The notes under the pieces: model-generated
Database searches by the model: none
What the model was told of the DNA's origin: nothing
What the model saw: only the letters and a program-made list of their open reading frames with translations
Part shown: piece after piece, positions 577 through 37,295 of the stretch
Layout: every line of letters starts with the position of its first letter
Numbering within the stretch: the first letter of the stretch is position 1
Assembly: GCA_030038275.1 (NCBI GenBank)
Contig: JASHPG010000154.1
Location: 1 to 40,175, forward strand
DNA: 40,175 bases
From: Candidatus Acidiferrales bacterium
GTDB lineage: Bacteria; Acidobacteriota; Terriglobia; Acidiferrales; UBA7541
Reading direction: 5' to 3'
Translations under genes and position numbers: made by a program

Positions 577-1728
577 ATGCCGAAGAAGCCCGAGAACGAA
601 GAAAGGCCCTTGCAACAGCAAACCCTGTCTCTTCGGATCAGCGACGCGTTGCGTACTCGATTGGAGCGGGCCAAGGAGCTTATATCCTCGAAGACCGGCG
701 AGGCAGTGACGACTTCCGATGTCGCCAAGCAATTCCTCGAATCGGCTAGGGAGGACCGTCTGGAAGTTGTGGACCTGCTGGCCCAGCCGACGGAAACGCT
801 TCTTCAAATTCGGAGGAAGGGCGAAGCGCAGCACGTTCTGTCGCGCGCGGAATGGACGGTCCTTGCCTACTTCGTACAGCAGGGTTTGGAAGCCTTTTCC
901 GACCGGACCCCTAACCCTGTTTCGCGCGAATCCCTGATCGGCGTTTTAGATGCGTTTGTCTCGGTGTTTGAACTGCGGAAGGAACGCACCTCGAAGCTCG
1001 ACGAGTATTACCTTGGCAATCTACCTACCGAGTGCCGACCTGCCAAAGCGAAAGACACAGGCGAGCAAGTGACTCCCGAAATCGTGCGCCGGACGGTGCT
1101 GGAGACTCGCAAACGATTGAGCGATCCGGCAACGAAGTGGGAGCCATTGCTGGCCGCTCGAAATCTGTATGTGATTCTGGAAGAAGAGAAGCTCTCCGGG
1201 GCCGAAGCACTAGACCGCGTCCTCCGTCCCTGCTGGCTGATTCTCTGGCGGCTAGCGGCACGAGGCCACTACTTCGTGAAGCAGCAGCCTCTCCGCCCAG
1301 CATCGACTCCCAAGGATTCTTTCTATCAGCCTCCCATCCCGTCCGTTAAGGAGGGCGAATATTCGCTTTCGTTTGCCCGTGGAGAGGGCAGCGAGTTCTC
1401 TCTTCTTCTGAGCTTCCCAGGTCCTCGCGGGCCTATGTATCCGATTGAGGGATATCCGAAGATCACTGAGTTTCGCGCGATGCTTGCGACGTTGGGACCA
1501 GAAGGAGAACGGCGTTGGAACCGCGAGTACTTCCTCGGGTATACCGCGCCATCGGAGGAGGGTAAGGGGAAGGAAGATGTTTGGTTCCGCGGCCACGCCA
1601 ATGCGATCACGTTCGGTTTCTCGGAGAAGGAGTGGAAGTCGGTACAGACGTTATTTCGCCGCGCCTGGGAAATCCCCGAGGTACGTATGGCCTGGGATGA
1701 ACTGGCGCTCGAATATGGAGAGCTGTGA
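577..1728 (+). CDS. Unknown protein with RHH-like N-terminus (mobile-element cargo)
   Basis: A 383-residue protein I do not recognise. Residues about 14-60 look like a ribbon-helix-helix DNA-binding segment: 'QTLSLRISDALRTRLERA' as strand plus helix, then 'TTSDVAKQFLES'. The rest is a soluble mixed alpha/beta protein without membrane segments. The C-terminal half has a 'SFARGEGSEFSLLLSFPGP' beta-rich patch and ends in a helical 'KSVQTLFRRAWEIPEVRMAWDEL'. The start at ATG 577 is well supported by GGGAGG eight bases upstream. It precedes the candidate oriT and the mobC-coupling protein-relaxase genes on the same strand, so a role in transfer control or plasmid-like maintenance is possible. A strong palindromic terminator follows at 1786. 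It could be an antitoxin-like regulator or a relaxosome factor; function unknown. Confidence 0.75.
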   Translation: MPKKPENEERPLQQQTLSLRISDALRTRLERAKELISSKTGEAVTTSDVAKQFLESAREDRLEVVDLLAQPTETLLQIRRKGEAQHVLSRAEWTVLAYFVQQGLEAFSDRTPNPVSRESLIGVLDAFVSVFELRKERTSKLDEYYLGNLPTECRPAKAKDTGEQVTPEIVRRTVLETRKRLSDPATKWEPLLAARNLYVILEEEKLSGAEALDRVLRPCWLILWRLAARGHYFVKQQPLRPASTPKDSFYQPPIPSVKEGEYSLSFARGEGSEFSLLLSFPGPRGPMYPIEGYPKITEFRAMLATLGPEGERRWNREYFLGYTAPSEEGKGKEDVWFRGHANAITFGFSEKEWKSVQTLFRRAWEIPEVRMAWDELALEYGEL

Positions 1729-1880: not shown

Positions 1881-1942
1881 TCATTGATTTTGCTAGCCGA
1901 AGTAGCGAACAGGTTTTGAAGTTCCTCAGGGAGGTTCCTCCT

Positions 1943-2290
1943 ATGTCTGCCGATCAACTGCGGAGCAGAACCGTAGGTTGCAAGATGACCGAGGCCGAAT
2001 GTGAGCGACTAGTTGCCGTGGCTGAGCGCGACGGTTTGACGCTCAGCGAATGGTGCCGCGAGGCACTCTTGCAACAAGCGGGTGTGCAAAAACCGCGCGC
2101 GTTGGAAGAGGCGGTGCTGGCAGAGATTATCGCGTTGCGGACAATCCTCTTGAATGCGCACTACAAACTGGCCCATGGAGAGGCGCTCACACCCGAGGAA
2201 ATGCAAAAACTCATTGAGCGGGCAGACCAGGACAAATTCCGCAAGGCGCAGGAGCGCCTTGCGGCGGCTGCTACTGGAGGTGCGAAATGA
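1943..2290 (+). CDS. mobC: MobC-like ribbon-helix-helix relaxosome accessory protein
   Basis: A 115-residue protein beginning with an RHH DNA-binding segment ('SRTVGCKMTEAECERLVAVAERDG', then 'LTLSEWCREALLQQ'), as in plasmid mobilization proteins of the MobC/TraY/TrwA kind, which bind oriT and help the relaxase nick. The second half is helical and charged ('EEMQKLIERADQDKFRKAQERL'). The ATG at 1943 has AGGGAGG eight bases upstream; an earlier in-frame TTG at 1916 lacks a site. The stop overlaps the start of the coupling protein (ATGA at 2287-2290), so the two are translationally coupled. The relaxosome role comes from fold and neighbours. The exact family (MobC versus other CopG-like) is not certain. 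Confidence 0.75.
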   Translation: MSADQLRSRTVGCKMTEAECERLVAVAERDGLTLSEWCREALLQQAGVQKPRALEEAVLAEIIALRTILLNAHYKLAHGEALTPEEMQKLIERADQDKFRKAQERLAAAATGGAK

Positions 2291-4266
2291 ACCAGGAATG
2301 GGGCCGAAACCAGTACGCAGGTGAGTGGCCGAATCCGAAGGCCGCTTGGACGCTTGCCGCATTGCTTTTCGCAGCGGCAAGCATGGCCGCGATTTGTGCA
2401 TATCGTTATTCCTACGTTCTGACACCGTTGCAGCGGTTCTATTTGAGGCCGTACATCCGCAGTGGACTCCGTACCGAAATTGGTGTCTCGAAAACTGACC
2501 GCTATGTGCTGCTAAATGTTGTGGACCGACGAGGCAGCAGGCTGGCACTCAACGAAGAAGTAGCGCCGGTAGCAAGTGTCACGGGAGAGGCGACGTTTTC
2601 CCTTACGGATGAAGCAGTCAGAATGGGAGACCAACGGCTGGTTTTCCAGCAGGGACAATATGACAACGCCAAGCTGCATGCGTTCTTAGGTCACTGGATT
2701 TACCGCGACCAAAGCTTCACGGACTTTTTGAGGCCAGCCCTTTGGGGTGGGCTGGGAGTGTTCTTTGTAGGCTTGCTGGTAGCCATACCCAAGGACGCTG
2801 CGCGCGCCCGCGCACGGAAAGAGGGGCGCAGACTCAAAGGGCCGGAACTTGTGACCGTGCGCGACTTCAATCGCAGAAACCGATCAGATGGCATCCGGTT
2901 CGAACAGAAACAGAGTTTCTTACAGAAAACGTTCGGAAGGGTTCCCACTCTAAGGCTCCCTCGCGCCATTGAGCCAAGCCACATCCTCATCATGGGTGAT
3001 ACGGGGACCGGCAAGAGCACCCTCATCCGAAGAATCTTGTTGCAGATCGAGGAGCGTGGCGAGACGGCCATTGTCTACGACCCGGCACTCGATTACACGC
3101 CGGAGTTCTACTCGCCTGAGCGTGGCGACGCGATCCTGAATCCGCTCGATGCCCGGATGCCCTATTGGAGTCCCGGCGAAGAGCTGAGAAATGATGCCGA
3201 AGCGCTCACCTTAGCTGCGTCTCTTTTCCCCGACCGGCACAATGAGAACCCGTTCTTCGTTGAAGGCCCGAGAAAAATCTTCGCGCATCTTCTCACGTTC
3301 AGACCGACACCGGACGAACTCGCTTGGTGGATGTGTCATGAGGATGAAATCGACCGGAGGGTGAAAGGCAGCGAGTATGCCGCGATGATCGACCGTCAGG
3401 CTCCGGCGCAGCGGAGCGGTGTGCTGGCATCCCTGAACATGATCGCCGACACCCTCAAGCTGCTTCCCTCAGAGAAAGAAACTACGGCGCGATGGAGCGC
3501 GGCGGAATGGTCAAAACAGAGGAAGGGTTGGCTTTTCCTCACGAGCACACCAGAAACGCGCAAACGGCTTATCCCCTTAACGAGCTTGTGGCTCGATACG
3601 CTTGTATTGCGGTTGATGAATCAAGGGCAGACCAACAGTCAAAAGACTTGGTTCGTTCTGGACGAACTCGCGAGCCTCCAGCGATTGCCACAATTGCATA
3701 CCGCCATCACGGAAAACCGCAAGTCGAACAATCCGGTTGTGCTCGGCTTTCAGGGACGCAGCCAGCTTGAAACGCGCTACGGGCATGAGGCGGAAGCAAT
3801 GCTGTCGCAGCCCGCGACAAAAATCTTCTTGCGCACGAGCGAGTGCCGTGCAGCCGAGTGGATTTCAAAAACGATTGGCGACGTTGAAATCGAGAGACTG
3901 CGCGAGAGTCGTTCGAGCGGACAGTCGGGTCGGCAGCGGAACACCAAGAGCTACAACTTGGAACGCCAGGTCGAACCACTTGTAATGGCGTCGGAGATCG
4001 GCGGGCTTGCCGACCTGTGCGGCTATCTCAAGAAAGGAAATCTTGTCGTGCGGATGAACTTCCCGTTCATCAAATTGCCGAGCAAGCATGCGAAGTACAT
4101 TGAGCGGCCAATGAGAAAACGGGCCGAGGAGCCGCCGCGAGCGGGAGCGGTAGTCGTTGGAGCGAACGAGATGCCCGAGCAGAAAATCACCCTGAGTGAA
4201 GTAAAGCAAGACCGTGAACATCAATTGGCTCGAACCGGCCCGACACAAGAGCACTTCTTCGAATAG
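2287..4266 (+). CDS. traD: Type IV coupling protein (TraD/TrwB/VirD4 family)
   Basis: A 659-residue conjugative coupling ATPase that would carry the relaxase-DNA complex to a type IV secretion channel at the inner membrane. Two membrane segments are visible, about residues 19-41 and 148-168, flanking a periplasmic part as in TrwB/TraD. Walker A is GDTGTGKS (237-244). Walker B is 'WFVLDEL' (455-461), followed by the family-typical 'LPQLHTAITENRKSNNPVVLGFQ' region. The length is normal for TrwB/TraD_N-type proteins. The start codon overlaps the mobC stop by four bases, and the relaxase starts ten bases downstream, giving a compact mobC-T4CP-relaxase operon. No mating-channel genes are present in this window, so the channel may be encoded further left or borrowed from another element. 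Confidence 0.92.
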   Translation: MNQEWGRNQYAGEWPNPKAAWTLAALLFAAASMAAICAYRYSYVLTPLQRFYLRPYIRSGLRTEIGVSKTDRYVLLNVVDRRGSRLALNEEVAPVASVTGEATFSLTDEAVRMGDQRLVFQQGQYDNAKLHAFLGHWIYRDQSFTDFLRPALWGGLGVFFVGLLVAIPKDAARARARKEGRRLKGPELVTVRDFNRRNRSDGIRFEQKQSFLQKTFGRVPTLRLPRAIEPSHILIMGDTGTGKSTLIRRILLQIEERGETAIVYDPALDYTPEFYSPERGDAILNPLDARMPYWSPGEELRNDAEALTLAASLFPDRHNENPFFVEGPRKIFAHLLTFRPTPDELAWWMCHEDEIDRRVKGSEYAAMIDRQAPAQRSGVLASLNMIADTLKLLPSEKETTARWSAAEWSKQRKGWLFLTSTPETRKRLIPLTSLWLDTLVLRLMNQGQTNSQKTWFVLDELASLQRLPQLHTAITENRKSNNPVVLGFQGRSQLETRYGHEAEAMLSQPATKIFLRTSECRAAEWISKTIGDVEIERLRESRSSGQSGRQRNTKSYNLERQVEPLVMASEIGGLADLCGYLKKGNLVVRMNFPFIKLPSKHAKYIERPMRKRAEEPPRAGAVVVGANEMPEQKITLSEVKQDREHQLARTGPTQEHFFE

Positions 4267-7250: not shown

Positions 7251-7279
7251 GTGACAATTGCATTAATTCCGTGTATAAA
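7251..7279 (+). promoter_or_regulatory. Probable sigma-70 promoter of the hxs operon
   Basis: GTGACA (7251-7256, five of six against TTGACA) and TATAAA (7274-7279) are separated by exactly 17 bp. They lie 44 bases upstream of the hxsA ATG, which has AAGGAG at 7306-7311. This is the clearest promoter in the mobile-element part and suggests that the hxs genes have their own transcription start rather than read-through from the transfer operon. The preceding 7048-7250 shows no gene. Confidence 0.6.
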
Positions 7280-7322: not shown

Positions 7323-7610
7323 ATGAAATCATACAAGTTCCTAATTCCTATTAGTGTTGCCGCCGCCGCCCTCGGTGGAAGCGCAGCTAAGGCGGATGCA
7401 AAGACCGAAGCGCCGAAGTCAAAAGAGATTGCCGCCAGTCCTGTCGAAAAAGAGGCGTTCCGCCAAAAATACGTACAGAACGGCGAAGAACATGCTCTCC
7501 TCATGCGCTTATCCGATGAAGGCATTCTTTATGCGCAGCACGATTCGCATTCATCCCATGATTCGCATTCATCGCACGCCTCTCACTCTTCTCATCAATC
7601 ATCAACGTAA
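7323..7610 (+). CDS. hxsA: His-Xaa-Ser repeat protein HxsA (putative radical-SAM substrate)
   Basis: A 95-residue precursor-like protein. Residues 1-25 form a signal peptide (basic start, hydrophobic 'FLIPISVAAAALGGSAA', cleavage likely near AxA). A charged linker follows. Residues 73-93 are seven unbroken His-Xaa-Ser triplets (HDS, HSS, HDS, HSS, HAS, HSS, HQS), then a two-residue tail. This is the defining architecture of HxsA in the His-Xaa-Ser system described by genome comparison (HxsA-D), where two radical SAM enzymes are thought to modify the repeat region. The DNA shows an 18-bp internal duplication (GATTCGCATTCATC at 7542 and 7560), suggesting repeat expansion. The following gene starts 78 bases downstream. 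Family assignment is firm from the repeats and neighbours. The modification is, to my knowledge, not defined. Confidence 0.88.
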   Translation: MKSYKFLIPISVAAAALGGSAAKADAKTEAPKSKEIAASPVEKEAFRQKYVQNGEEHALLMRLSDEGILYAQHDSHSSHDSHSSHASHSSHQSST

Positions 7611-7688
7611 CCTCGATTCGATTCGTGCCGCGAACAATTCGGTCCCAATGCGGTTTCAGACACACTGCGCTCACGATTTTGGCGGATT

Positions 7689-7988
7689 ATGAATCTTGAG
7701 GTCACCTTTGATTCGGCAGTTTATTCCATGGATGCCGTTAAAGCGGCTTGCTACAAATTCGTTGATCGCTTTTCCCCAGACATCGAATTCGATCACGGAA
7801 AAATCGTTTGCCGTCTGCAGTTCGATGACAAATTGGCGCGTTCAACAGCCGAATCGTATATAGAAAACCTCAAGAAGGAGGTCCTCGATCAGGATTTACG
7901 TCTCAAGCTGAAGACTGAAACGGAGCCGATACGTAACTTGATCCTCGCTCACGCTTTTTCAAAGACCGGATTGATCCGTGATGACTGA
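7689..7988 (+). CDS. hxsD: His-Xaa-Ser system protein HxsD
   Basis: A 99-residue soluble protein matching HxsD, the small companion always seen beside the HxsB and HxsC radical SAM enzymes. It has a beta-rich N-terminus ('LEVTFDSAVYSMDAVKAACYKF'), a strand 'GKIVCRLQF' and the conserved-looking C-terminal helix 'IRNLILAHAFSKTGL'. Size and shape recall small peptide-binding or chaperone-like proteins used by RiPP maturases, but that role is inference. Its stop overlaps the start of hxsB (ATG 7981, stop ending 7988), so translation is probably coupled. Confidence 0.85.
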   Translation: MNLEVTFDSAVYSMDAVKAACYKFVDRFSPDIEFDHGKIVCRLQFDDKLARSTAESYIENLKKEVLDQDLRLKLKTETEPIRNLILAHAFSKTGLIRDD

Positions 7989-9435
7989 ATTCCACCAAAT
8001 CGCCTCGTACGAACCCCAGTCTCCTAAGTACCAACTCCTGCCATTCCGGCTTACTGAATTGAACGACGAGAAGTACGTGCTAACGAATATTGCAGGCGAA
8101 TATCTGATCGTCTCGAAGGATATTGTTCCCAGGCTCGTAAACCATCAACTATCGACTGATGATCGCGCCTACATAGAGTTGCGGGCGCGCCATTTTTTAA
8201 TGGACAGCGCAACAGCGATTGCTCCGGATCTGCTGGCAATCAAATTGAGAACTCGATATGAGCGTTTGGCCAACTTCACGAGCTTGCATATGTTTGTCGT
8301 TACCCTTCGGTGTGAACATAGCTGCCAGTATTGCCAAGTTTCTCGACAATCTGACGATAAGCGGCAGTTCGATATGTCACTGGCGGATGCGGATGCCGCT
8401 CTTGACCTTACGTTCCGATCTCCTGCTCCCTATATAAAGATCGAGTTTCAGGGAGGAGAACCTCTACTCAATCGCGACCTCATCCGCCATATCGTTTGCG
8501 AAGCCGAACAGAGAAAGCCCGCCAAGCAGATTGAATTTGTGATTGCAACTAATCTGGCTCTGATTGATGCAACATTCCTTGACTTCTGCTACAAGCACGA
8601 CATCAAGATTTCAACCTCCCTGGACGGTCCCCGAGATTTGCACGATCGAAATCGGCCTCGACCGGGAAACGACAGTTACGAGAAGACCATCAATGGCATT
8701 CGGCAGGTGCGCGCCGCCCTTGGTAAAAATAAGGTTTCAGCGTTGATGACCACAACGGAAGCCAGCTTGGGTCGGGTGAAAGATATCATTGACGAGTATC
8801 TGGCCCAAGAATTCAAAGGCATTTTCCTGCGACCACTATCACCCTATGGTTTCGCTATCAGAACGAAATCATACATGCGGTACAACACGGATCGATGGCT
8901 AGAATTCTATAAGCAGGGCCTCGAGTACATAATCCAACTTAACAAGCAAGGAATTGAATTCAGAGAATTTTATGCGAGCACAATATTGGCGAAAATGTTG
9001 ACTAGCTCCGATCCTGGCTTTGTGGATTTGATGAGCCCTTCGGGAATAGGAATCGCCGCTGTCGTCTACAACTATGATGGGTACGTTTATCCGTCAGATG
9101 AAAGCCGCATGTTGGCCGAGATGGGAGACCAACATTTTCGGCTCGGGCATGTCCGGCAGAACTCGTATAATGAAATCTTCCTCTCACCGAAGTTGCTGAA
9201 ACCAATTGAAGAATCGTTCGCGTTCAGCAACCCGATGTGTCACGACTGCGCTTTCGAACCCTATTGCGGTGCTGATCCCGTGTTCCACTGGGCCATGTAC
9301 AAAGATTACGTTGGACGAAAGCCGGAATCTGAGTTCTGCCGCCGAAATATGGCAATCTTTCAGCATTTGATTGAACTGATGGAAGGCGACCTTTTGGTTA
9401 AGCAGTTGTTTCTTAGGTGGGCGAACAGATGTTGA
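7981..9435 (+). CDS. hxsB: His-Xaa-Ser system radical SAM maturase HxsB
   Basis: A 484-residue radical SAM enzyme. The [4Fe-4S]-SAM motif C-x3-C-x2-C is at C111, C115 and C118 ('RCEHSCQYCQVS'). 'EFQGGEPLLN' follows as the GGEP motif, and later 'STSLDGPRDLHDRNR' is typical of peptide-modifying SPASM enzymes. The C-terminus carries extra cysteines (C420, C423, C429 in 'MCHDCAFEPYC', and another in 'EFCRRN') that would bind auxiliary clusters. Length and order (D-B-C) fit HxsB. ATG 7981 is preferred over the GTG three bases before. Its reading end overlaps hxsC by seven bases. It presumably acts on the HXS repeats of HxsA in the cytoplasm before export; the chemistry is unknown. Confidence 0.92.
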   Translation: MTEFHQIASYEPQSPKYQLLPFRLTELNDEKYVLTNIAGEYLIVSKDIVPRLVNHQLSTDDRAYIELRARHFLMDSATAIAPDLLAIKLRTRYERLANFTSLHMFVVTLRCEHSCQYCQVSRQSDDKRQFDMSLADADAALDLTFRSPAPYIKIEFQGGEPLLNRDLIRHIVCEAEQRKPAKQIEFVIATNLALIDATFLDFCYKHDIKISTSLDGPRDLHDRNRPRPGNDSYEKTINGIRQVRAALGKNKVSALMTTTEASLGRVKDIIDEYLAQEFKGIFLRPLSPYGFAIRTKSYMRYNTDRWLEFYKQGLEYIIQLNKQGIEFREFYASTILAKMLTSSDPGFVDLMSPSGIGIAAVVYNYDGYVYPSDESRMLAEMGDQHFRLGHVRQNSYNEIFLSPKLLKPIEESFAFSNPMCHDCAFEPYCGADPVFHWAMYKDYVGRKPESEFCRRNMAIFQHLIELMEGDLLVKQLFLRWANRC

Positions 9436-10592
9436 AACTCGGTGGCAATATCGATCCGCTGACTCAAGCAGGTGAGTACGGCGACGCTCTCTTCACCATA
9501 ACGGCTGATCCATTTCTGCCTAAATCTATTAGGAATCGTTTCGCATTGCTGACGGAAGACTCGCTGGATGCTCCGGGTTATGGCGTACAGTTGGTAACGA
9601 ACAACGGCGGCAAAGATGACGAGGCTCCGAGGCCCAATGTGAGGATTTATCGCTTACCGGTTCACTTCAATTATTTGCGGCCCGGCGATATCGTATTTAT
9701 CGACAACAAACGACATTTCCTGCGCACCCTTTTCCGAAGGGAATCACGTCACAATTCGATCTTACTAACGGAGCAATGCAATCACTATTGCCTGATGTGC
9801 TCCCAGCCGCCCAAGAAAACCGACGATTCTTATTTGCTTCGACGGACCTCCGAACTCATAAAGATGATTCCCACGGACACGCGAAGCATCGGTTTCACGG
9901 GTGGCGAGCCAACGTTATATGGCGAGGCTTTGATCGAGCTTATTAGGCAGGCGAAACTTCAGCTCCCGAATACATCCATCGGGCTACTAACCAATGGTCG
10001 AAGGTTTGGGAATAAGGATTTTGCCGCACGATTTGCAGAAGTCGATCACCCGGACTGCATGCTAGGGATACCAATCTATTCTGATGATCCCGTTCGCCAC
10101 GATTACGTAGTGCAGGCGCGAGGCGCTTTTGATGAAACGATGCGGGGCATTCTTAATCTCAAACGCTATGGTCAGAAGGTGGAGATCAGAATCGTTATTC
10201 ATAAGCAAACAATTAATCGGATCGTAAACACGTGTGAATTTATCTGCCGGAATCTCCTATTCGTCGATCACGTCGCCCTGATGGGGCTTGAGATCACCGG
10301 ATTCACCAGACCAAATCTGGACCTGTTGTGGATCGATCCCTACGAATATAGGGATGCCTTGAGCGAGGCCATGCACGTTTTGAACTCGTATGGCATGAAT
10401 GCATCTGTCTACAATCACCAATTGTGCGTTGTGAACAGAGATGTCGAACGCAATTACCGCAAATCGATCAGCGATTGGAAGAATGAGTATTTAGAAAAAT
10501 GTGCTCCGTGCACCCGCAAAGGCGAATGTGGCGGGTTCTTTTCCTCTTCCAAGATGTACAAACACAGTGCGTACATCACGCCATTCGTCTGA
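9429..10592 (+). CDS. hxsC: His-Xaa-Ser system radical SAM maturase HxsC
   Basis: A 387-residue second radical SAM protein of the HXS system. The cluster motif is C117-x3-C121-x2-C124 ('EQCNHYCLMCSQPP'), followed by the GGEP motif 'IGFTGGEPTLYG' and a C-terminal cysteine group ('CAPCTRKGECGGFF') suited to another iron-sulfur site. The N-terminal 110 residues form an extra domain before the barrel, seen in this family. ATG 9429 has AGGTGG eight bases upstream and overlaps the hxsB stop; an in-frame GTG at 9417 is less likely. HxsB and HxsC almost always occur together, so they probably act in sequence or as a complex on HxsA. Confidence 0.92.
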   Translation: MLKLGGNIDPLTQAGEYGDALFTITADPFLPKSIRNRFALLTEDSLDAPGYGVQLVTNNGGKDDEAPRPNVRIYRLPVHFNYLRPGDIVFIDNKRHFLRTLFRRESRHNSILLTEQCNHYCLMCSQPPKKTDDSYLLRRTSELIKMIPTDTRSIGFTGGEPTLYGEALIELIRQAKLQLPNTSIGLLTNGRRFGNKDFAARFAEVDHPDCMLGIPIYSDDPVRHDYVVQARGAFDETMRGILNLKRYGQKVEIRIVIHKQTINRIVNTCEFICRNLLFVDHVALMGLEITGFTRPNLDLLWIDPYEYRDALSEAMHVLNSYGMNASVYNHQLCVVNRDVERNYRKSISDWKNEYLEKCAPCTRKGECGGFFSSSKMYKHSAYITPFV

Positions 10593-10659
10593 TACCGGGC
10601 CGCTGGGCGGCTCTCTTTGGCAGCCCTCTGCGTTCTTAAGAAAATGTGGGACAGCAATT

Positions 10660-11127
10660 GTGGAGGCGTCCTCAGGGTATCCAGTTATTGATGTTGCGTG
10701 CGGGGCGGGTCGCAATGCATTTTATCTAGCATATCTGGGCTGCACCGTCATCTGCATAGATCGGGACCTGAGCACTCTTCGGCAAAACTTGGTGCATCCG
10801 GAACTCTCCAAGCGTTTAACGCTCATAGAAATGGATTTGCTCGCTGACCCTTGGCCGTTTCAAGAGCGGATGATCGGGGGAATCGTGTTGGTGGATTTTC
10901 TTGATCGTTCGCTCTTTCGGTTTTTCCAACGATCCCTGATCACAGGTGGGTATCTCCTCATTGAAACGATCTCCAATAGAGGCGGCAATTATCTGGAATT
11001 GCCCAAAGCCAGCGAACTGAGGCAGACATTGGAGAAATCATTTGAATTCGACGCTTATGATGAACGCGAAGCAGGCCCAGGCCATGCAAATGCCGTCACG
11101 GTCAGAATGTTGGCAAAACGGCGATGA
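10660..11127 (+). CDS. SAM-dependent class I methyltransferase downstream of hxsC
   Basis: A Rossmann-type methyltransferase: motif I 'VIDVACGAGRNAFYLAYLG', then 'VICIDRD' as the acidic end of strand 2, 'LTLIEMDLL', 'GGIVLVDFLDR' and the C-terminal 'GYLLIETISN' strand. It resembles TehB-like small-molecule or peptide methyltransferases. The start is uncertain. The frame is open back to 10501, and residues 'SLWQPSAFLRK' encoded at about 10612-10644 look like the usual family N-terminus, but the only usual start codon between hxsC's stop and motif I is GTG 10660. Another possibility is a start overlapping the end of hxsC. It follows hxsC on the same strand and is absent from the core HXS set, so it may be an accessory tailoring enzyme. 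Substrate unknown. Confidence 0.75.
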   Translation: MEASSGYPVIDVACGAGRNAFYLAYLGCTVICIDRDLSTLRQNLVHPELSKRLTLIEMDLLADPWPFQERMIGGIVLVDFLDRSLFRFFQRSLITGGYLLIETISNRGGNYLELPKASELRQTLEKSFEFDAYDEREAGPGHANAVTVRMLAKRR

Positions 11128-11211: not shown

Positions 11212-12966
11212 CTACGGAATAACTGACGCTTTATGCTTGTTAAGAGCGGCAGTCAGATTTGTCAGGAGCGGACGAAAAGCAGAAAAGTCAATCGTATCAG
11301 CCTTCGGTCGCACAACCTTATGGGCGAAAATCTTTTTGCTGTAATGCTTGTCCTTATCGAAGCCATCGCCCGGATTGAATGTCTTGCCGTCAATTGCCGT
11401 GGACTTGCTTGAAGCATCGAAGAGGTCCTCGATCCTCGACGCGATTCCGCCAGCTCCAAGTGGCGTTGGCACGGCGTACAGATTCTTGATGATGTGGACA
11501 AAAGGCTCCGTGCCGCTGACAACCACCTTGGAGACATCCTTTATCGTTTTCCTGATGGTCTTAGCGCCGTCGTCGTTGTCATACAAAATGACCACCGGGT
11601 TCGTTAGTCCAGGACCCGTGAACTCTTTGGTCTCTCGCTTGTATGCTCCGATGAAATTGCTCAGCACGCTGCTGCCGCCGTCCTTGAGATCAAGGAGTCG
11701 CGCTGTGCTCGATTTGGGATATTTGTAGAGCCTGAGTTTTAGACGAATCTTTTTGTCCGACATGACTTCAGCTAGCACAGGGAATTCCGTCGCAAGGCTT
11801 CGAATCGCATGCGTGAGGTAGACGTTGTCGGTTTCCCCCTCGCAGATAACTACGGGAGCTTGAGCTGCGTAGAACGTGCTATAGATCAAGAACTCCCTGT
11901 AGACCTTCTCATTGGACGACCTCTCGTTGGGCAGCGCATCCGATGTGTGAATCTTGTTGTAAACCTCGATGCTATCGATGAAACCCAACATTCCGTGAAG
12001 CTCGTTTAGCGTACCTGGATGTTTTTCCAAGACCGCTTGTCCGTCTTTGTGCGTCACCCCAAGGATTTGGAATGTGCCCGTCTTAACGAGGCTGCGGACC
12101 ATCGCGCGTACGTTGTGACGGTACTCCCATCGAACATTGATCTTCTTATTGACGACGAGGCCAGTTACATTCTGTCGCGACGTTCTGTACATCTGGTGCG
12201 TCTTTGTCGCGTTGATGCGAAAGCCGGTGCGCCCGATGACCTTCTGCAACGCTTCACCGGGCAACCACAAATGGGAGGCAGCGCCGTCAATACCCGACGG
12301 CACGGCGATATCCGCCGGAAAGTCCTTCTTGTTGGTCGAGAACGTCAGATCGTCAGCATATCGGGAATACGTGCACCCGGACTCTGACGCCAACCTCACC
12401 AGTCGCATGTCGAGCAAATGAGCGACCAGATTAGAGATCACGGGCGAGCAGGGGCTTCCTTGCGGCAGCGAATTTTCGTGACACGCGATCTGCGCAATCA
12501 CAGTCGCGGCTTCTTCGTGCAACTCAAAGTCTCGGTTTTTCAGCAGAAAACCGCGCACCCTGCCGAAATTGATTGATGGGAAGAAGTCCTCTAGATCGAG
12601 ATTGAAGACCCATCGGCGATGGCGGTGCTGGCGAGCGTTTGTAATGATAGACCGCTTGCGCTTGAATCCGTGGGCCGTCCGATCTTTACGCTGCTTCGCA
12701 GTATTTATTTCTTCAACGCAGTCTTGCAGGAGTTCGGATAATTTGCGCTGTAGGAGCTTCAAGGCATCAATAGGTGCCTTGATCGTTCGTTGGTCGCCGT
12801 TCCGTTTGGGAATTTGGAATGTCTTGTACTTCGTCGTCTCAGGCTGCTTATACAAAATATATGAAACAGCCTTCGGCTTGAAATCCAGCAACTTCGCCAC
12901 ATCACTCAGCGATTTTGCAGCTTCAGAGTGACGAGTCTGGACATGCGTCACGATAGGGCGACTCAC
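11212..12966 (-). CDS. Retron reverse transcriptase fused to TOPRIM nuclease domain (Ec67/Eco2 type)
   Basis: A 584-residue retron protein, close to the length of the Ec67 (Eco2) enzyme (about 586). The RT domain has the retron-specific NAxxH (NARQH, 110-114) and VTG (267-269) motifs, 'LDLEDFFPSINFGRVRG', 'LPQGSPCSPVISN' and the catalytic YADD (203-206). The C-terminal part is a TOPRIM domain with 'ICEGETD' (E376) and 'LYDNDD' (D463-D466), ending 'IFAHKVVRPK..IDFSAF' much like Ec67. The RT makes msDNA from the adjacent RNA (12960-13090). In this class the TOPRIM fusion is the effector of phage defence. The GTG at 12966 has AGGAG five bases upstream. A later GTG at 12951 would align with the Ec67 start. 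It is convergent with the methyltransferase gene. Confidence 0.93.
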   Translation of the reverse strand: MSRPIVTHVQTRHSEAAKSLSDVAKLLDFKPKAVSYILYKQPETTKYKTFQIPKRNGDQRTIKAPIDALKLLQRKLSELLQDCVEEINTAKQRKDRTAHGFKRKRSIITNARQHRHRRWVFNLDLEDFFPSINFGRVRGFLLKNRDFELHEEAATVIAQIACHENSLPQGSPCSPVISNLVAHLLDMRLVRLASESGCTYSRYADDLTFSTNKKDFPADIAVPSGIDGAASHLWLPGEALQKVIGRTGFRINATKTHQMYRTSRQNVTGLVVNKKINVRWEYRHNVRAMVRSLVKTGTFQILGVTHKDGQAVLEKHPGTLNELHGMLGFIDSIEVYNKIHTSDALPNERSSNEKVYREFLIYSTFYAAQAPVVICEGETDNVYLTHAIRSLATEFPVLAEVMSDKKIRLKLRLYKYPKSSTARLLDLKDGGSSVLSNFIGAYKRETKEFTGPGLTNPVVILYDNDDGAKTIRKTIKDVSKVVVSGTEPFVHIIKNLYAVPTPLGAGGIASRIEDLFDASSKSTAIDGKTFNPGDGFDKDKHYSKKIFAHKVVRPKADTIDFSAFRPLLTNLTAALNKHKASVIP

Positions 12967-13090
12967 CGGCACTCCTATGCGATAGTCAATGCGCAACGGA
13001 AATACGCGTAATCGCACACGGCGAGTCAGCATACTCCCTCACATTTGTTTCAAATGCCACGAAACATGGCACAAAATCTGCCGGTGAGTC
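12960..13090 (-). ncRNA. Retron msr-msd RNA
   Basis: Directly upstream of the RT gene, a perfect 12-bp inverted repeat bounds a 131-nt segment. Read on the minus strand, a1 is GACTCACCGGCA (13090-13079) and a2 is TGCCGGTGAGTC (12971-12960). After a1 comes GATTTTGTGCC, nearly the Ec67 msr start (GGCAGATTTG). The first base after the stem, G13, corresponds to the branching guanosine. Small msr hairpins follow (TGCCA/TGGCA; CATTTG-AAA-CAAATG). The 3' end carries AGGAG immediately before a2, as in Ec67. A -10 box TAGAAT lies six bases upstream of a1. The msd stem is less clear by eye (a TGTGCG/TGCGCA pairing). The RT start codon is inside a2. Confidence 0.85.
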
Positions 13091-13381: not shown

Positions 13382-14224
13382 ATGAAATCAGAACAAATCA
13401 GACAAATCACAAGCCAGGCAATCGAGGAGCTAGTCGCGGCGCTCAAGGCCGGTAGCAGTGAAGCCTTGACGAATTATCTCGCAGCGATGGGCCGATTCCA
13501 CCGTTACAGCTTTTTCAACGTCATGCTCATCGTGCGCGCTTGCCCCAATGCAACGCACGTGGCCGGATATCAGACGTGGAAATCGCTCGGACGCTACGTC
13601 AAGAAGGGCGAAAAAGGGATTATGATCCTTGCTCCTCTCTTTCGTCGCCGCACAAACGAAAGCAATGAAGCGGACAATGCCAGCTTGGATTCCAGCGACT
13701 CCCGGACACTGACGGGCTTCCGTGCCGTTTATGTTTTCGACGAGAGCATGACTGGAGGAAATCCTTTGCCCCAAATCGGCTGCGTCAACGGCGATCCAGG
13801 CGCGCATCGCGAGCGGCTCGAACAGTTCGTTCGGGACCAGGGCATCGCACTAGAATATTCGGCTGATATCGCGCCTGCGAAGGGCGTCTCAGAAGGCGGG
13901 ACAATCAAGCTGCTACCCGACCAGTCCCCGGCTGAAACCGTGGCGACGCTGGTACACGAGCTAGCCCACGAGCGGCTTCACCGCACTGAGCGCCGCGCGA
14001 GCACAACGAAGCGCCTCCGCGAGACGGAAGCCGAGGCCGTCGCTTTTGTGGTTTGCCAAGCCATCGGCCTTGAGACCGGAACGGCGAGCGTGGATTACAT
14101 CTCGCTGTGGAATGGTGACGCCGCTGTGCTTCTTGAGAGCCTCGAACTCGTGCAGCGCACGGCTACGGAAATTATCGCAGCGATTACCGCAGACAAGCCC
14201 CTGCCTCCCGAAGGCGGAGGCTAG
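13382..14224 (+). CDS. ardC: ArdC-like antirestriction protein (ssDNA-binding domain plus zinc metallopeptidase)
   Basis: A 280-residue protein. Residues about 1-125 form the ArdC N-terminal domain (DUF1738-like; 'YSFFNVMLIVRACPNATHVAGY', 'GRYVKKGEKGIMILAP'), which in the plasmid pSA protein binds single-stranded DNA. Residues about 140-240 form an IrrE/ImmA-like zincin with HExxH at H192-E193-H196 ('VHELAHERL') and a downstream 'ETEAEAVAFVV' that supplies the third ligand. ArdC protects incoming conjugative DNA from restriction. The start at 13382 has AAAGGA upstream. It stands behind a long hairpin and next to a retron and a toxin-antitoxin pair in the cargo region. Family assignment is firm; antirestriction activity is inferred. 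Confidence 0.88.
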   Translation: MKSEQIRQITSQAIEELVAALKAGSSEALTNYLAAMGRFHRYSFFNVMLIVRACPNATHVAGYQTWKSLGRYVKKGEKGIMILAPLFRRRTNESNEADNASLDSSDSRTLTGFRAVYVFDESMTGGNPLPQIGCVNGDPGAHRERLEQFVRDQGIALEYSADIAPAKGVSEGGTIKLLPDQSPAETVATLVHELAHERLHRTERRASTTKRLRETEAEAVAFVVCQAIGLETGTASVDYISLWNGDAAVLLESLELVQRTATEIIAAITADKPLPPEGGG

Positions 14225-14226
14225 GC

Positions 14227-14679
14227 TCAAGCTTTGACGCTGTCAGGATGCAAGGCTGCGACACCATCAAAACGGCCAAAATCCGCCACGTTCAGTGTGA
14301 GGATATGGCTCACTCCGTGGATGTACATGGCCGCTGCTAGGCGCGCATCGTAAACCTGAACTCCAGAAACGCTGTGCTTTAGCACAATCCTTCGCCACTC
14401 GCGGTAAACCGCCTCATTATCTGGCAGCAGACTCATCCCGGTTTCTATCGCGCGCACTTCGCGCTCGCTCTCGCCTACTGACAAACCGAGGCCATTGCGT
14501 TCGACGGGCCGAGTCATCGCATTCCAGAATTCTGCGATGTTCTGGTGTGTGTAGTGGAGCGTTGTGCCCTGTCCTGCGAGACGTGCGAGGGCGGTATCAA
14601 CCAACTTGTGCTGAGGATCAGAGCGGCGTGTGATGCGCAGCAGAATGTTCGTATCGACCAGACACGAAGCAATCGCCAT
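14227..14679 (-). CDS. vapC: VapC-like PIN-domain toxin
   Basis: A 150-residue PIN-domain ribonuclease. The acidic residues expected to bind Mg2+ are all present: D9 ('CLVDTN'), E50 ('NIAEFW'), D111 ('VYDARLAA') and D133 ('VADFGRF'). Its ATG directly follows the antitoxin stop (TAAATGG), so the pair is translated from one message. VapC toxins cleave tRNA or rRNA when the antitoxin is lost, which helps keep mobile elements in the population. It is convergent with ardC, with only two bases between the stop codons. Confidence 0.92.
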   Translation of the reverse strand: MAIASCLVDTNILLRITRRSDPQHKLVDTALARLAGQGTTLHYTHQNIAEFWNAMTRPVERNGLGLSVGESEREVRAIETGMSLLPDNEAVYREWRRIVLKHSVSGVQVYDARLAAAMYIHGVSHILTLNVADFGRFDGVAALHPDSVKA

Positions 14680-14925
14680 TTAGTTGTGTTCCTGATATAT
14701 CCATTCGCGGGAGATTGTCTCTGGCAAAGGCGGAATCTTGTCGGAGAACTGTGCGAGCGAGTCCAGCCATGTCCGTATCTCGGCTGCGGTTTGTGGCCGA
14801 TGAGTTTCCGACGGCTGCGCTTCCACTTGCTGCGCCAGAATCTCTTCGATGTATGCCTCGACCCTCAACCCGCGCGCTTTGGCTCGGGCAGCGATTTCGT
14901 CGGGTATCTTGACCGTGATTTCCAT
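14680..14925 (-). CDS. Antitoxin partner of the PIN toxin
   Basis: An 81-residue antitoxin. The N-terminus 'MEITVKIPDEIAARAKARGLRVEAYIEEILAQ' is a short DNA-binding RHH-like segment. The C-terminal half, rich in Pro, Glu and Trp ('TAAEIRTWLDSLAQF', 'PPLPETISREWIYQEHN'), should wrap the toxin. The ATG at 14925 is preferred over a GTG two codons earlier because it gives a standard antitoxin start. The toxin gene begins immediately after its stop codon. Like other antitoxins it probably represses its own promoter, which would lie in 14926-15040. Confidence 0.85.
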   Translation of the reverse strand: MEITVKIPDEIAARAKARGLRVEAYIEEILAQQVEAQPSETHRPQTAAEIRTWLDSLAQFSDKIPPLPETISREWIYQEHN

Positions 14926-15040
14926 CCACACAATTTAGCACGAATCGGCGGCCAGCGACATCTTGACTGGCAGCATCGGAAACACAATGTCGCAGCTAAG
15001 ATCAGTCGAACATTGGACGCATCAAGCCGGTCATGTTGCC

Positions 15041-15563: not shown

Positions 15564-15608
15564 TTTGCAAGCAGGGGGTCGCCGGTTCGATCCCGGCCAC
15601 GTCCACCA
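15564..15608 (+). other. tRNA-Ala(UGC) 3' fragment: right attachment site of the element
   Basis: The sequence from the anticodon loop TTTGCAA (15564-15570) through the GCAGG stem side, the variable region, the T arm GCCGG-TTCGATC-CCGGC (15581-15597), the acceptor strand CACGTCC, discriminator A and CCA end (15605-15608) is the 3' part of a tRNA-Ala(UGC). The 5' half is missing: upstream bases do not complete the anticodon stem, and no GGACGTG acceptor strand is present. Tyrosine-recombinase islands often cut in the anticodon loop and leave such a copy at the far end. The intact tRNA is expected left of the window. Confidence 0.85.
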
Positions 15609-15860
15609 ACCACTGTCCGCAATTTCAATCGCTTCCTCTGAGTTCGTCCCTATCCGATGCACTATGCCACGGGGGAATACCCGCAAAATTCGCAAGCTGC
15701 AGGCCGCCGGCACAGAATTCGCAACACAGTTCGTTTTAGCGTTTTAAGCTCCCCCAGCCACTAGCTATTAAGCTTCCGGAACTGCTTTCCGCGCGCCGTG
15801 AACTCTGATAGCATCAAATGTTGCCAATTACTTTCATTTTTACTGTGGAGCAATCGAATC

Positions 15861-16052
15861 ATGGCATTAGCATGTGAAATCTGCGGCAAAAAGCCTCATT
15901 ACGGCAACTCCATCAGCCACGCGCATAACGTCACGCGGCGTCGCTGGAATCCCAATCTGCGCCGCGTCCGCGCCGTCGTAAACGGTGTGCGCAAGCAGGT
16001 GCGCGTCTGCACCTCCTGCATCCGTTCGGGCCGCGTCAAGAAAGCTGCCTGA
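15861..16052 (+). CDS. rpmB: 50S ribosomal protein L28
   Basis: A 63-residue L28 of the zinc-binding (C+) form: the cysteine pair in 'CEICGKKPHYGNSISHAHN' and the second pair in 'VRVCTSCIRSGRV'. 'TRRRWNPNLRRVRA' is the conserved rRNA-binding core. The ATG at 15861 is preceded by GTGGAG; an open extension to 15798 is not part of the family. It is the first chromosomal gene after the attachment site. The gap 15609-15860 between the two contains no recognisable gene. Confidence 0.97.
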   Translation: MALACEICGKKPHYGNSISHAHNVTRRRWNPNLRRVRAVVNGVRKQVRVCTSCIRSGRVKKAA

Positions 16053-22744: not shown

Positions 22745-24151
22745 TTAGAGGATGTAGCGGCTTAGGTCCTGGTCCTTTACGATATTCGCGAGCTGCTTTT
22801 GCACGTACGCGGCGTCCACTTTGACTGTTTTCTTCTTCAGTTCGGGCGCGTCGAAGGAGATTTCTTCGAGCACTCGCTCAAGAATAGTGTGCAGGCGGCG
22901 CGCACCGATATTTTCGGTCTGCTCGTTGACCGTGGCCGCGAACCGAGCGACTGTAGCGATGGAATCGTCCGTGAACGTCAGCTTTAGCCCCTCGGTATCT
23001 AGCAGAGCGGTGTACTGCTTGATGAGCGCGTTTTTCGGCTCGGTGAGAATGCGGATGAAATCAGCCTCAGTGAGCGAACTCAGCTCAACGCGAATCGGAA
23101 AGCGGCCTTGCAGCTCCGGAATCAGCTCCGAGGGTTTCGAGGTATGGAACGCGCCAGCGGCGATGAACAGAATGTGATCGGTGCGCACCATGCCGTAGCG
23201 CGTGTTGACCGTGGTCCCTTCGACGATCGGTAGAATGTCGCGCTGCACGCCCTCGCGCGAAACGTCCGGGCCGTGGCCGGACTCGCGGCCGGCGATTTTG
23301 TCGATCTCGTCGATAAACAAAATTCCCATCTGCTCCACGCGATCGACGGCCACGCGCGTGACCTGATCCATATCAATCAGGCGATTCTCCTCTTCCTGAA
23401 TAAGGTAATCGAAGGCTTCGGACACGGTCATCTTGCGCTTTTTCTTTTGCTGCCCGAACATGCCGGAAAGCATGTCCTTGACGTTGATGTCCATCTCCTC
23501 GACACCCTGATTCGTGATTATCTCGAGCGCCGGCATGGCGCGTTCGCGGACCTCCACTTCCACGAGACGCTGATCGAGCTTGCCTTCGCGAAGCTGGGCG
23601 CGGAGTTTTTCGCGAGTGCGCTGCGTCTGCTCGCGGCGCTGCGCTTCGGTGGGGCCGTTCGGCTCAGCAGTCGGAGGGGAAGAAGGCAGTAGCAGCTCGA
23701 GTAGGCGCTCTTCCGCTGACTGTTCGGCGCGTTCGGCCACTTCGTCAAGTTTTTCTTCCCGGACCATATCGATGGCCGTCTCCACAAGGTCGCGGACCAT
23801 GGATTCCACGTCGCGACCGACGTAGCCGACTTCGGTGTATTTGGAAGCTTCGACTTTCACGAACGGACAGCCTGCCAGACGAGCGAGACGACGGGCGATT
23901 TCCGTTTTGCCAACGCCAGTGGGACCGATCATCAAAATGTTCTTCGGCAGGACGTCTTCCGCCATCTCGGTAGGCAATTTCTGTCGGCGCACGCGATTGC
24001 GAAGCGCGATCGCTACGGCTTTCTTCGCGGCCTGCTGGCCGACGATGTATTTATCGAGCTCGGCGACGATCTCGCGTGGGGTGAGTTCGTCGAATGACGG
24101 CATCGGTTCGGGCTCGGCTGCTTGCTGTTCTCCGGACAAGTAGATCACCAT
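22745..24151 (-). CDS. hslU: ATP-dependent protease ATPase subunit HslU (ClpY)
   Basis: A 468-residue AAA+ unfoldase that feeds proteins to the HslV peptidase. Walker A is GPTGVGKT (76-83). '[23 protein letters not shown]' contains the substrate pore motif GYVG, '[16 protein letters not shown]' is Walker B, and '[20 protein letters not shown]' is sensor 2. The very C-terminus (DLSRYIL) is the tail that docks into HslV. The I domain is shortish, with a Pro/Glu-rich insert '[19 protein letters not shown]'. ATG 24151 has GGAG six bases upstream; the open frame to 24214 overlaps hslV and is not used. It starts 20 bases after hslV. Confidence 0.97.
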
Positions 24152-24171
24152 GTCTTTCTCCGGCTTGCCGC

Positions 24172-24696
24172 TCACACTTCTTCGATGCTGAAGTTCGCGT
24201 TCGTGTAGATGCAAATATCGGCAGCGATGCGCATCGCTTCCTGAGCGATGTCCTTGGCGCTCAACTTGGAGTTTTTTGCCAAGGCGCGCGCAGCGGCGAC
24301 CGCGTAATTGCCGCCGGAACCGATGGCACAGACGCCGTCGTCCGGCTCGATGACGTCGCCGTTGCCCGATAGCAGGAACGTATTTTTCGGGTCAGCGACG
24401 AGCAGCAACGCATCGAGGTGGCGCAGCGAACGGTCGGTGCGCCATTCCTTTGCCAGTTCGACGGCGGCCCGCGGAAGGTTGCCGTGAAATTCCTGAAGCT
24501 TATTTTCAAAACGCGAGAAGAGCGAGAGCGCGTCGGCGGTACTGCCGGCGAAACCGGCGACGATCTTGTCGTTGTAAAGGCGACGTATCTTCTTGGCGCT
24601 ATGCTTGATCACTGCATCGCCCAAGGTGACCTGCCCATCAGCGGCCAATACAACTTTGTTGTCCTTGCGCACGCAGAGGACAGTCGTGCCGTGCAT
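24172..24696 (-). CDS. hslV: ATP-dependent protease peptidase subunit HslV (ClpQ)
   Basis: A 174-residue threonine peptidase forming the inner rings of HslUV. The active N-terminal threonine follows a three-residue leader ('[15 protein letters not shown]'). '[23 protein letters not shown]', '[13 protein letters not shown]' and '[14 protein letters not shown]' are standard HslV blocks. The ATG at 24696 gives the family length. ATG 24723 would add nine residues ('MQTSREAQQ'), and the frame is open much further. A TATAAT box at 24730-24735 would start transcription at about 24723, so only these two starts are possible from that promoter. Confidence 0.95.
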
Positions 24697-24729
24697 CTGC
24701 TGGGCTTCGCGGCTAGTTTGCATCAAGTG

Positions 24730-24735
24730 ATTATA
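24730..24735 (-). promoter_or_regulatory. Perfect -10 box upstream of hslV
   Basis: TATAAT on the minus strand, with a weak TTTGCA (four of six) 16 bases further upstream. The predicted start of transcription falls at or within a base or two of the ATG at 24723, giving either a leaderless message or a leader of about 27 bases before ATG 24696. Confidence 0.55.
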
Positions 24736-24832
24736 CTCCGCGGCTCGCGAATGCAAAAATCCGGCGCGGAGGTGAACACGCTCGCGAAAGAAAAGCGTAC
24801 GAAGACAAACCGAACTGGCGAAGCTAAGATCG

Positions 24833-25780
24833 CTACCAGTCTGGATTTGACGATGGATTTTTGCTGGAATTAGAGCCGCCGTTATTCGAGCTGCTATTCT
24901 GGTTCTGGTTCTGATTCTTATCCTTGTCTTTCTTATCCTCTTTAGCCTCTTTCTTGCGTTCCTTCTTTCCAACTTTGGCCCAGCGATCTTCGAGGGATTG
25001 TTTGGTGAAGAGCGAATTCGCGAGGTCGGTGTTGTAATCGCATTTGGCGAAGAAAACCTGAAAAACTTTCATGTTGTTGCGGTCGCGTTCGAGCTGGAAA
25101 GCGGTTTGTATGCCCTGAACCTGATGGTAATCGGAGAAAAAATCGGTTTCCTGTCTGGCCAGCTGCGTTTTCGGATCGCGAGTTTCGATCGTTTCCTGAA
25201 TCGGCAGATGAGTGGCCTGGGCGAACGCGATCCGAATCGTGCGATTATCGCTGTCCACCAGCTCAACCCAATCAACCTGTTTCAGTTGGACAATATCCGG
25301 ACCGGCATAGCGGAAAATCATGCCCGGCTCGTGGATGCGACGGCGCAGGATATTGTCGATATCGTTCAAATTGTCCTGCTGAAATTGTTCCAGATCGGAA
25401 GGCGGAGCGTCCGAAACGCCGCCGCGATCGAGCACCCAGCCTTGTTTGCCGTTGTACACCTGAATGATGTTGCGCTTGGGCAAGTTTTCCTGGCGCTCCT
25501 TATCGGGCGGAATCGAATAATCGATGAAGCGTCCGAAACCTGTCACGTCGCCGGAGTGGTCGAACTGGCTATCGTTACCGCTACAAGTGACGTCGTGGAC
25601 GTTCAGGTAAGTTGGACCACCGAGTGCGTCGATGCCCGCCTGCAAAATCTGCTTGGCCCTGGCCGCGCTTTGATCTGGCATCAAGACTTCGTCGTCCTGC
25701 GCGAACGCGCGAGAGGAAACGGCCACCGCCACGGAAACGCAAAACACCAAGCTGAGAATGAGCGAGCGTGTCATTCGCAC
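24833..25780 (-). CDS. Secreted protein of unknown function with low-complexity tail
   Basis: A 315-residue exported protein. Residues 1-27 are a signal peptide ending '[10 protein letters not shown]'. The middle part reads like the LolA/LppX-like outer-membrane lipoprotein sorting fold often found in Acidobacteriota ('[23 protein letters not shown]', '[18 protein letters not shown]', '[25 protein letters not shown]'). Residues about 275-315 are low complexity: a Lys/Glu run, then Asn/Gln and Ser/Asn repeats. The GTG start at 25780 has GAGGAG seven bases upstream; ATG 25774 is possible. Function is unknown. Confidence 0.8.
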
Positions 25781-36827: not shown

Positions 36828-37295
36828 TCACTCCAGAGACTCGGGCTGCAAGGCGATGCCTTTTTCCCCCGCGGCGCGTTTCTCCCAATACTTCCGCACC
36901 CAGGCTTCCCAACTTTTCCCCGCGGCGGTATCGCGTCCCGTAAAGGCTAGCGCGGCGATATCGGAATACGAGATCGAAAGTCTTTCGTCCGAATCTTTCG
37001 GCATCACGCGCACAAAGGATTGTTCGAGCCCCGGCCCCTTGCGGCGGTCAAAAACGTAGCCTTCGACTTTGTCGCCGTTTTTGCGAGTGATGGTCACGTC
37101 GCCACGATAACTGAACGCGGTATCAAGCGCCGAGTGTATTTCCTCCGCACTCGCGAGGGCCGGCATCCAGCCTTCCAGTTGCGCGCGCGCCGTTCCGGGC
37201 GCGGGTGGGACAGGACCAGCGTTTAGTGCTCCCGATTGCGCGGACCGGCCATCAACACCCTGCGTGGCACGATCGGCTGAACTTGTCTCGCTCAT
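36828..37295 (-). CDS. Small hypothetical protein coupled to hpnH
   Basis: A 155-residue soluble protein. The first 45 residues are disordered-looking (Ser/Ala/Pro/Gly-rich). The rest is a small beta domain ('[30 protein letters not shown]', '[26 protein letters not shown]') and a basic end '[16 protein letters not shown]'. The beta part resembles LSm-like or RNA/protein-binding small barrels but cannot be placed. Its start overlaps the hpnH stop by four bases (ATGA), so it is expressed with hpnH and may serve the same pathway. Confidence 0.75.

Follow-up and report, generated by a model that had tools for sequence, protein, structure and literature searches.

The His-Xaa-Ser (HXS) system was reportedly defined by Haft and Basu, as a prediction of comparative genomics. 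In its HxsA2 type, four genes stand in the order hxsA2-hxsD-hxsB-hxsC and the repeat protein has a C-terminal tract of HxS triplets. The HxsA type (TIGR03979, with the associates TIGR03981, MauG-like, and TIGR03982) has homologous HxsB and HxsC proteins and HxS repeats, but there HxsA lies after hxsC and carries a C-terminal PG_binding_1 domain (loci L057, L143, L144, L147 and L148 of our comparison). HxsB and HxsC are cited as putative maturases in one paper (PMC9062424), hxs genes are listed with conjugative-element genes of Pseudomonas aeruginosa in another (PMC8446631), and the system is noted in Vibrio in a third (PMC6537148). The titles and abstract openings covered, mostly outside subscription journals, contained no report of the product. 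The DNA described here, hereafter the window, is one whole contig (C46) of 40,175 bases from the 4.07-Mb, 88% complete genome of a Candidatus Acidiferrales bacterium. It shares with the HxsA2 type all four families above their cut-offs, the gene order and the C-terminal tract, its repeat protein coming first and ending at the repeats, and it adds a fifth gene, hxsM, a MobF element and an adjoining retron. The HXS system is real and of a known kind, the element is a good example of a cargo context, and the linked methyltransferase is new.

We regard it as moderately probable that the window holds a horizontally acquired hxsA2-hxsD-hxsB-hxsC-hxsM cassette, carried as cargo downstream of the relaxase gene in a MobF mobilisable element, in which two radical SAM (S-adenosylmethionine) enzymes modify the repeat protein, the methyltransferase tailors it and Sec exports it. 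The following features make up the anatomy of the cassette; its chemistry we infer.

7251 to 7279, plus strand: candidate sigma-70-like promoter, GTGACA-17-TATAAA, 10 of 12 consensus positions, 44 bp before the hxsA2 ATG
7323 to 7610, plus strand: hxsA2, 95 amino acids; NF038296 69.8 bits, cut-off 48; putative Sec-type signal peptide with an FLxP motif, linker, C-terminal (HxS)7
7539 to 7601, plus strand: HxS tract, HDS HSS HDS HSS HAS HSS HQS
7689 to 7988, plus strand: hxsD, small beta-alpha-beta-beta-alpha protein; TIGR03976 58 bits, cut-off 50
7978 to 9435, plus strand: hxsB, radical SAM maturase, one auxiliary set of four cysteines; TIGR03978 602.9 bits, cut-off 370
9417 to 10592, plus strand: hxsC, the other radical SAM maturase, likewise with an auxiliary set of four cysteines; TIGR03977 385.5 bits, cut-off 267.9
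10567 to 11127, plus strand: hxsM (a name coined here), class I SAM methyltransferase; PF08241 21.9 bits, cut-off 21.2; overlaps the end of hxsC

Families were assigned by score against the curated NCBIfam cut-offs, with a Pfam scan alongside. As the first-pass annotation of the window had proposed for positions 7323 to 10592, the HXS system is complete, and seven HxS triplets and an intact CxxxCxxC motif in both radical SAM enzymes were seen. The repeat protein had been called HxsA, but it scored only 33.5 bits against TIGR03979 (cut-off 121.65) and is renamed HxsA2, and the end of the cassette had been set at 10592, where the overlapping hxsM was overlooked. The four genes are contiguous. 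An overlapping operon is found for hxsD/hxsB and hxsB/hxsC, whereas hxsA2 and hxsD are 78 bp apart; plasmids L052 and L053 are annotated with the identical A2-D-B-C layout. The promoter ascribed to the operon agrees with the candidate listed above, but a stock promoter scan listed none upstream of hxsA2, and chance alone would give 1.09 matches of this quality in a window. The main support for the candidate is therefore its position.

HxsA2 ends in HDSHSSHDSHSSHASHSSHQSST, where seven HxS triplets stand in tandem; to judge from the sequence, this tract is probably the modified core. A chance origin of the repeats was ruled out by 20,000 shuffles of HxsA2, in which the longest tract had three triplets and was reached twice. 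The 18-bp duplication reported earlier inside the tract is real but imperfect: positions 7539-7556 and 7557-7574, which fill its first 36 bp, are identical at 16 of 18. Among 92 C-terminal tracts of homologues the number of triplets ranged from 5 to 10 (17, 49, 15, 5, 5 and 1 tracts, respectively), after two of 104 frames (>220 amino acids; L067 and L113) had been dropped and 10 of the remaining 102 tracts, which were not C-terminal, set aside. Together the duplication and this range fit a change in repeat number. The middle residues of the triplets were mainly S, A, Y and R. In an alignment of 20 HxsA2 sequences residue L7 was invariant, as was the His spacing. A crude FL/YL pattern, not anchored to the signal, occurred in 84 of 96 sequences, with P two positions later in 61; two sequences that missed it (L104 and L128) nevertheless resemble the pattern by eye. 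Two HxsA2-like genes accompany a single HxsB in L059, L075, L087 and L101.

Alignments of 51 HxsB and 99 HxsC sequences showed no variation in the CxxxCxxC cysteines. Four further cysteines per enzyme were conserved in 99-100% (HxsB 421/424/430/454, n = 51; HxsC 337/362/365/371, n = 99), and therefore each enzyme probably holds one auxiliary Fe-S cluster. The model of HxsB (pLDDT 90.5) had peptide maturases as its nearest solved folds, namely CteB (5why, E 4.4e-19), anSME (4k37, E 2.4e-16), TigE (8vpo, E 8.2e-16), ChlB (9gm3, E 2.2e-14) and SuiB. The fold and the radical SAM core are shared with the first four of these at 15-18% identity and a TM of ~0.57-0.64 by query length, whereas substrate and reaction differ, the HxS core of the window being without Cys. 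The N-terminal domain of HxsB has three strands and then helices, an order which we take to recall the recognition element of ribosomally synthesized and post-translationally modified peptides (RiPPs); searching by sequence with residues 1-100 gave nothing useful. A fold search of the PDB with the HxsD model (pLDDT 93.2) gave no confident match. HxsD was rejected as a PqqD-like recognition domain, its model being beta-alpha-beta-beta-alpha and its best PDB matches weak and Pcc1-like (E 8.0e-3, TM 0.40); it is probably an adaptor. Comparison was made with 80 genome loci, the best 80 of 492 relatives, and the frequencies therefore hold for the closest relatives. Upstream of hxsB a frame of at least three tandem HxS triplets was present in 79 of them, 79 had an HxsC match and 73 an HxsD match; the missing HxsA and HxsC cases (L083, L097) sit at contig ends.

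In the mechanism that we propose, HxsA2 would be made as a precursor whose FLxP motif, a conserved motif inside a signal, may double as a leader. In the cytoplasm, HxsB and HxsC would act repeatedly on the C-terminal triplets with the clusters that their cysteines suggest, and HxsD together with the N-terminal domain of HxsB may present the substrate. The likeliest chemistry would be a crosslink from the His ring to Ser inside a triplet, or an oxidation at Ser, and this is the weakest step. To judge from the linkage of its gene, HxsM would methylate the precursor or the modified product in the subtype that bears hxsM. Triceptide maturases make a three-residue cyclophane, and their spacing of an aromatic, any and a third residue fits HxS, a lead only; HxsB falls far below their listed NCBIfam cut-offs.

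The modified product may then leave via Sec and act in the cell envelope. The envelope is pointed to by the Sec-type signal of HxsA2, which was recognized by eye, and by the peptidoglycan (PG)-binding domains and MauG-like protein of sister HXS systems. PG_binding_1 was above its cut-off in 7 of 38 chosen proteins encoded near the hxsC end, five of them HxsA-type repeat proteins and two accessory. A MauG-like protein of the HXS-associated family TIGR03981 (531.3 bits, cut-off 340) is encoded in L143, and a homologue of it is found four places after hxsB in L060, L084, L131 and L134, where the TIGR03981 family was not scanned. A small protein, with PG_binding_1 in L060 and L084, and a TIGR03982-type protein (L060, L131) were also seen after HxsA2-type systems. 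The MauG-like genes in these five loci, and the invariant His spacing of HxsA2, would suit a redox or metal cofactor, bound to protein in the envelope and resembling the MauG-matured quinone cofactors, with a His-rich core that binds metal once modified. Yet no MauG-like gene follows hxsC in the window, and metal binding is only predicted. We consider such a cofactor possible but rather unlikely; it is compatible with the tailored, exported repeat protein proposed above and not opposed to it.

The gene hxsM lies in an open frame from 10501 to 11127, and translation probably starts from the GTG at 10567. An NCBIfam scan of HxsM gave only generic matches, none reaching a cut-off, whereas other HXS associates (TIGR03981, TIGR03982) do have models. 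HxsM shares the generic class I core with daptide-type and TehB-like methyltransferases and is not a member of the daptide family (NF041820, 27.8 bits, cut-off 175). We compared 101 loci, which include the near-copies L056/L140, L051/L133, L053/L136 and L049/L099. Relatives of hxsM were found at most one gene away from hxs genes in eight of them, the window included, in three phyla (Acidobacteriota, Melainabacteria, Pseudomonas). In L067 the homologue (49% identity) has a frame overlapping the hxsC stop, and in L125 (Melainabacteria) one gene lies between hxsC and the homologue. The Pseudomonas homologues follow hxsC in L069, L081, L096 and L100 and lie divergently upstream of hxsA2 in L071. 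The hxsM type was the commonest family directly after hxsC in the set (6 loci), ahead of the PG-binding, TIGR03982-type and MauG-type families (5 loci each). By an informal reading, loci with hxsM fall in four or five places of the HxsB tree.

A profile of eight HxsM seeds was searched against three genome samples, with 8 candidates scored per genome (11 in one sample). In the phylum sample of 396 genomes it exceeded 100 bits only in the window's genome (G000) and in G171, whose match (C21:78024-78587) has the contig position of L067; among 298 Pseudomonas it did so only in the centre genome, and among 398 Pseudomonadota only in that same centre. All of these matches were hxs seed loci. The remaining matches over threshold scored 60-86 bits and covered part of the domain; no hxsB, hxsC or hxsD lay beside them within the short stretches, except for a 74-residue hxsB match (E 4e-4) in L163. 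Of the six HxsD-bearing genomes in the phylum sample, two had hxsM. When every candidate was scored in 24 hxs genomes (from the 80 genome loci), seven had hxsM, each at its seed locus. A scan of viral contigs gave one weak relative (30%).

These data bear on whether the window holds an ordinary four-gene HXS system with the methyltransferase as a chance neighbour in a cargo region. Such an arrangement would explain why 93 of the 101 loci are without hxsM, why tblastn of plasmid records with two HxsM queries gave no match, and why hxsM is set apart from hxsC by one gene in L125 or by up to ~120 bp in four Pseudomonas loci. It does not explain the same subfamily beside hxs in Acidobacteriota, Melainabacteria and Pseudomonas, the overlap with hxsC in both the window and L067, or the restriction of matches above 100 bits to hxs seed loci in three samples, and we judge it improbable. 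The gene is probably a new part linked to the HXS cassette, a tailoring variant. More tentatively, and with the balance somewhat against it, there may be a methylating HXS subtype in several phyla, in which a dedicated methyltransferase tailors the product of HxsB and HxsC into a doubly modified, Sec-exported repeat protein, traded by mobile elements at a position that restriction genes occupy in a related element. If so, every methyl would add +14 to the mass of the same core, a second tag that is easy to detect and an extra handle on the product.

The element that carries the cassette has the following features.

1916 to 2290, plus strand: NikA-like mobilisation protein; PF21983 35.6 bits, cut-off 27
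2287 to 4266, plus strand: TraD/TrwB-type coupling protein with a Walker A motif; PF10412 273.7 bits
4276 to 7047, plus strand: MobF relaxase-helicase of the TraI/TrwC type; NF041492 224.9 bits, cut-off 100; YY28, HxH178, Walker A
11212 to 13032, minus strand: Ec67-type retron reverse transcriptase-TOPRIM, type I-C, a neighbouring cargo gene; NF038237 699.9 bits, cut-off 450; PADLOC RT-Toprim_I-C
13382 to 14224, plus strand: antirestriction-like protein with an ArdC-N domain; PF08401 44.4 bits, cut-off 22.6
15564 to 15610, plus strand: 3' fragment of tRNA-Ala, 47 nt beginning near the anticodon loop; 91.5% match with the corresponding 3' portion of tRNA-Ala(TGC) in the relative G004

Relatives of the relaxase were present in 7 of 61 genomes at E <=1e-40, the window's own included, at 84% in G003 of the same genus and 59% in G078. 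In G078 (L193) the related backbone has the same order NikA-TraD-TraI. Beyond it come genes for an ArdC protein, for type I restriction and for a TIR-like protein that scores 24.6 bits, below its cut-off of 28; on the other side there are a large serine recombinase and tRNA-Gln. The comparable stretch of the window holds hxs, hxsM, the type I-C retron and the ArdC-N protein, a comparison that makes the HXS cassette an accessory and not a housekeeping function. The contigs of G003 and G005 end before any cargo would show. In 2-kb windows the GC content was 0.49-0.50 over hxs and 0.52-0.59 elsewhere, and of 101 genomes only the window's own had an HxsB above the cut-off. Together with the related element these results support the mobile cargo suggested in the first-pass annotation. 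Its description of the element as transfer-competent proved too strong: relaxase, coupling protein and NikA-like protein are present, but PF03135 (VirB4 type), the one mating-pair family searched, was not found in the 88% complete genome, and a Pfam scan of 16 element frames gave no integrase or recombinase, the element being cut by the left end of the contig. The genome has 14 PF00589 integrases, none on this contig; serine recombinases were not searched genome-wide.

In other genomes, too, hxs loci are found beside mobile genes. A MobF relaxase lies upstream of hxs in Novosphingobium (L127, L130). A tyrosine recombinase was near hxs in 18 of the 80 genome loci and any mobile seed match in 25, with full flanks in 53 and no background control; the 14 rows of mobile-gene seeds correspond to 13 loci, as L180 was entered on both strands. 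With tblastn, HxsB matched 510 of 72,556 plasmid records; 397 covered at least 80% of the query and 342 were typed conjugative. Klebsiella made up 322 of the 510, the listed Klebsiella rows being only ~31% identical. A Leptospira phage record has annotated hxs genes. An alignment search gave 10 viral contigs with an HxsB relative, one of them (L140) a near-copy of the Leptospira phage HxsB. Two more (L145, L146) were partial, and L147 and L148 reached only 29% identity; a viral scan with the HxsB sequence alone gave no match. With carriage on plasmids, phage and viral contigs and HxsD sporadic in the phylum (6 of 396 genomes, the window's own included), hxs loci are not always chromosomal and unlinked to mobile genes.

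In the HxsB tree, from which L145 and L146 were omitted, the window's HxsB adjoins Nitrospira (support 80). Both belong to a group of nine rows (92) that also contains Acidobacteria RYN_26 and betaproteobacteria and lies apart from four other Acidobacteriota HxsB proteins, so that the phylum is split. Several label changes on this tree are no proof of transfer. Near-identical HxsB proteins in Bartonella and Gilliamella contigs (L106, L109, L111, L114) suggest a recent exchange or a binning error.

Several points weigh against a horizontally acquired, methylating cassette as proposed here. Product, modification and phenotype are all predictions, and the Pfam scan of HxsA2 gave no domain. HxsB lies below every listed cyclophane maturase cut-off (YhhB 78.4/445, AmcB 65.7/425, GrrM/OscB 62/310, XyeB 59/450, FxsB 52.2/370; the best 25 of 68 families), so that the chemistry cannot be read from its sequence. 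Since most loci have no adjacent hxsM, the gene is not needed for the core reaction. Five of the eight hxsM loci are Pseudomonas, and the 297 other Pseudomonas genomes of the sample were not checked for hxs. As the seeds were picked for adjacency to hxs, the profile search shows a subfamily rare elsewhere rather than a blind association, and its absence elsewhere is incomplete with so few candidates scored per genome. The HxsB tree was built by a quick method and drew long-branch warnings, and no star marks the group that holds the window; Pseudomonadota needs fewer label changes than shuffled labels (6 vs 7.7), and the history of HXS is therefore partly vertical.

A role in defence or competition had also been suggested. 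In PADLOC the hxs proteins had weak matches only: viperin-type ones for both radical SAM proteins, and one of 34.1 bits between the methyltransferase and mad2. A module for defence against phages or plasmids would agree with the retron that adjoins hxs and with the type I restriction genes past TraI in the related element, but for 55 of the 80 genome loci a distance of up to 10 kb from hxs showed no mobile gene, with the limited seed set and flanks given above, and with the PADLOC matches so weak we hold it to be quite unlikely. A secreted bacteriocin-like competition peptide has very little probability: a precursor with radical SAM maturases in a mobile location would suit it, as would the pair of ABC-ATPase and FtsX-type permease after hxs in several Pseudomonas loci (L070, L077, L085, L098, L102 region), but the signal is Sec-type and peptidoglycan-binding domains occur in HxsA-type proteins. 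Among the neighbour families of hxs, which are only partly annotated, neither a protease nor an immunity gene was recognized, and, hxs genes aside, no family held one fixed place (ranks -5 to -3 and +2 to +4) in more than 6 of the 101 loci. The ATPase-permease pair was taken for chromosomal flank.

The retron fusion protein has the motifs YADD, VTG and CEGETD, and an Rfam search for retron RNA at 11212-13032 gave no credible match. The tRNA-Ala fragment is, from its sequence, probably the copy of an attachment site at the right end of the element. The integration into a tRNA gene stated before, which is put too strongly, has this fragment as its basis, and there is no intact tRNA within the window. 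With up to two mismatches allowed, a 25-base piece of the fragment occurs only once in the assembly. In an empty-site comparison with 10 same-genus stretches, similarity to the window starts at 15780-15861 and the target tRNA could not be placed. One of these stretches (L039) has a tRNA-Ala ~6.7 kb from rpmB in the opposite orientation; the other nine, several of them with short upstream sequence, have none.

Further genes were noted on the element and its flank. A 383-amino-acid protein at 577-1728 (plus strand), without a Pfam or NCBIfam match, adjoins the mobilisation genes. A PIN-domain protein at 14227-14679 (minus strand) and a small frame before it on the same strand at 14680-14931 are probably a VapBC-type toxin-antitoxin pair. 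On the chromosomal flank, positions 22745-24972 (minus strand) encode an AAA ATPase and a proteasome subunit, which we take to be HslU-like and HslV-like. The C-terminal half of a 738-amino-acid frame at 37292-39508 (minus strand) contains a radical SAM and a DUF3463 domain; the frame is, we presume, long for that pairing.

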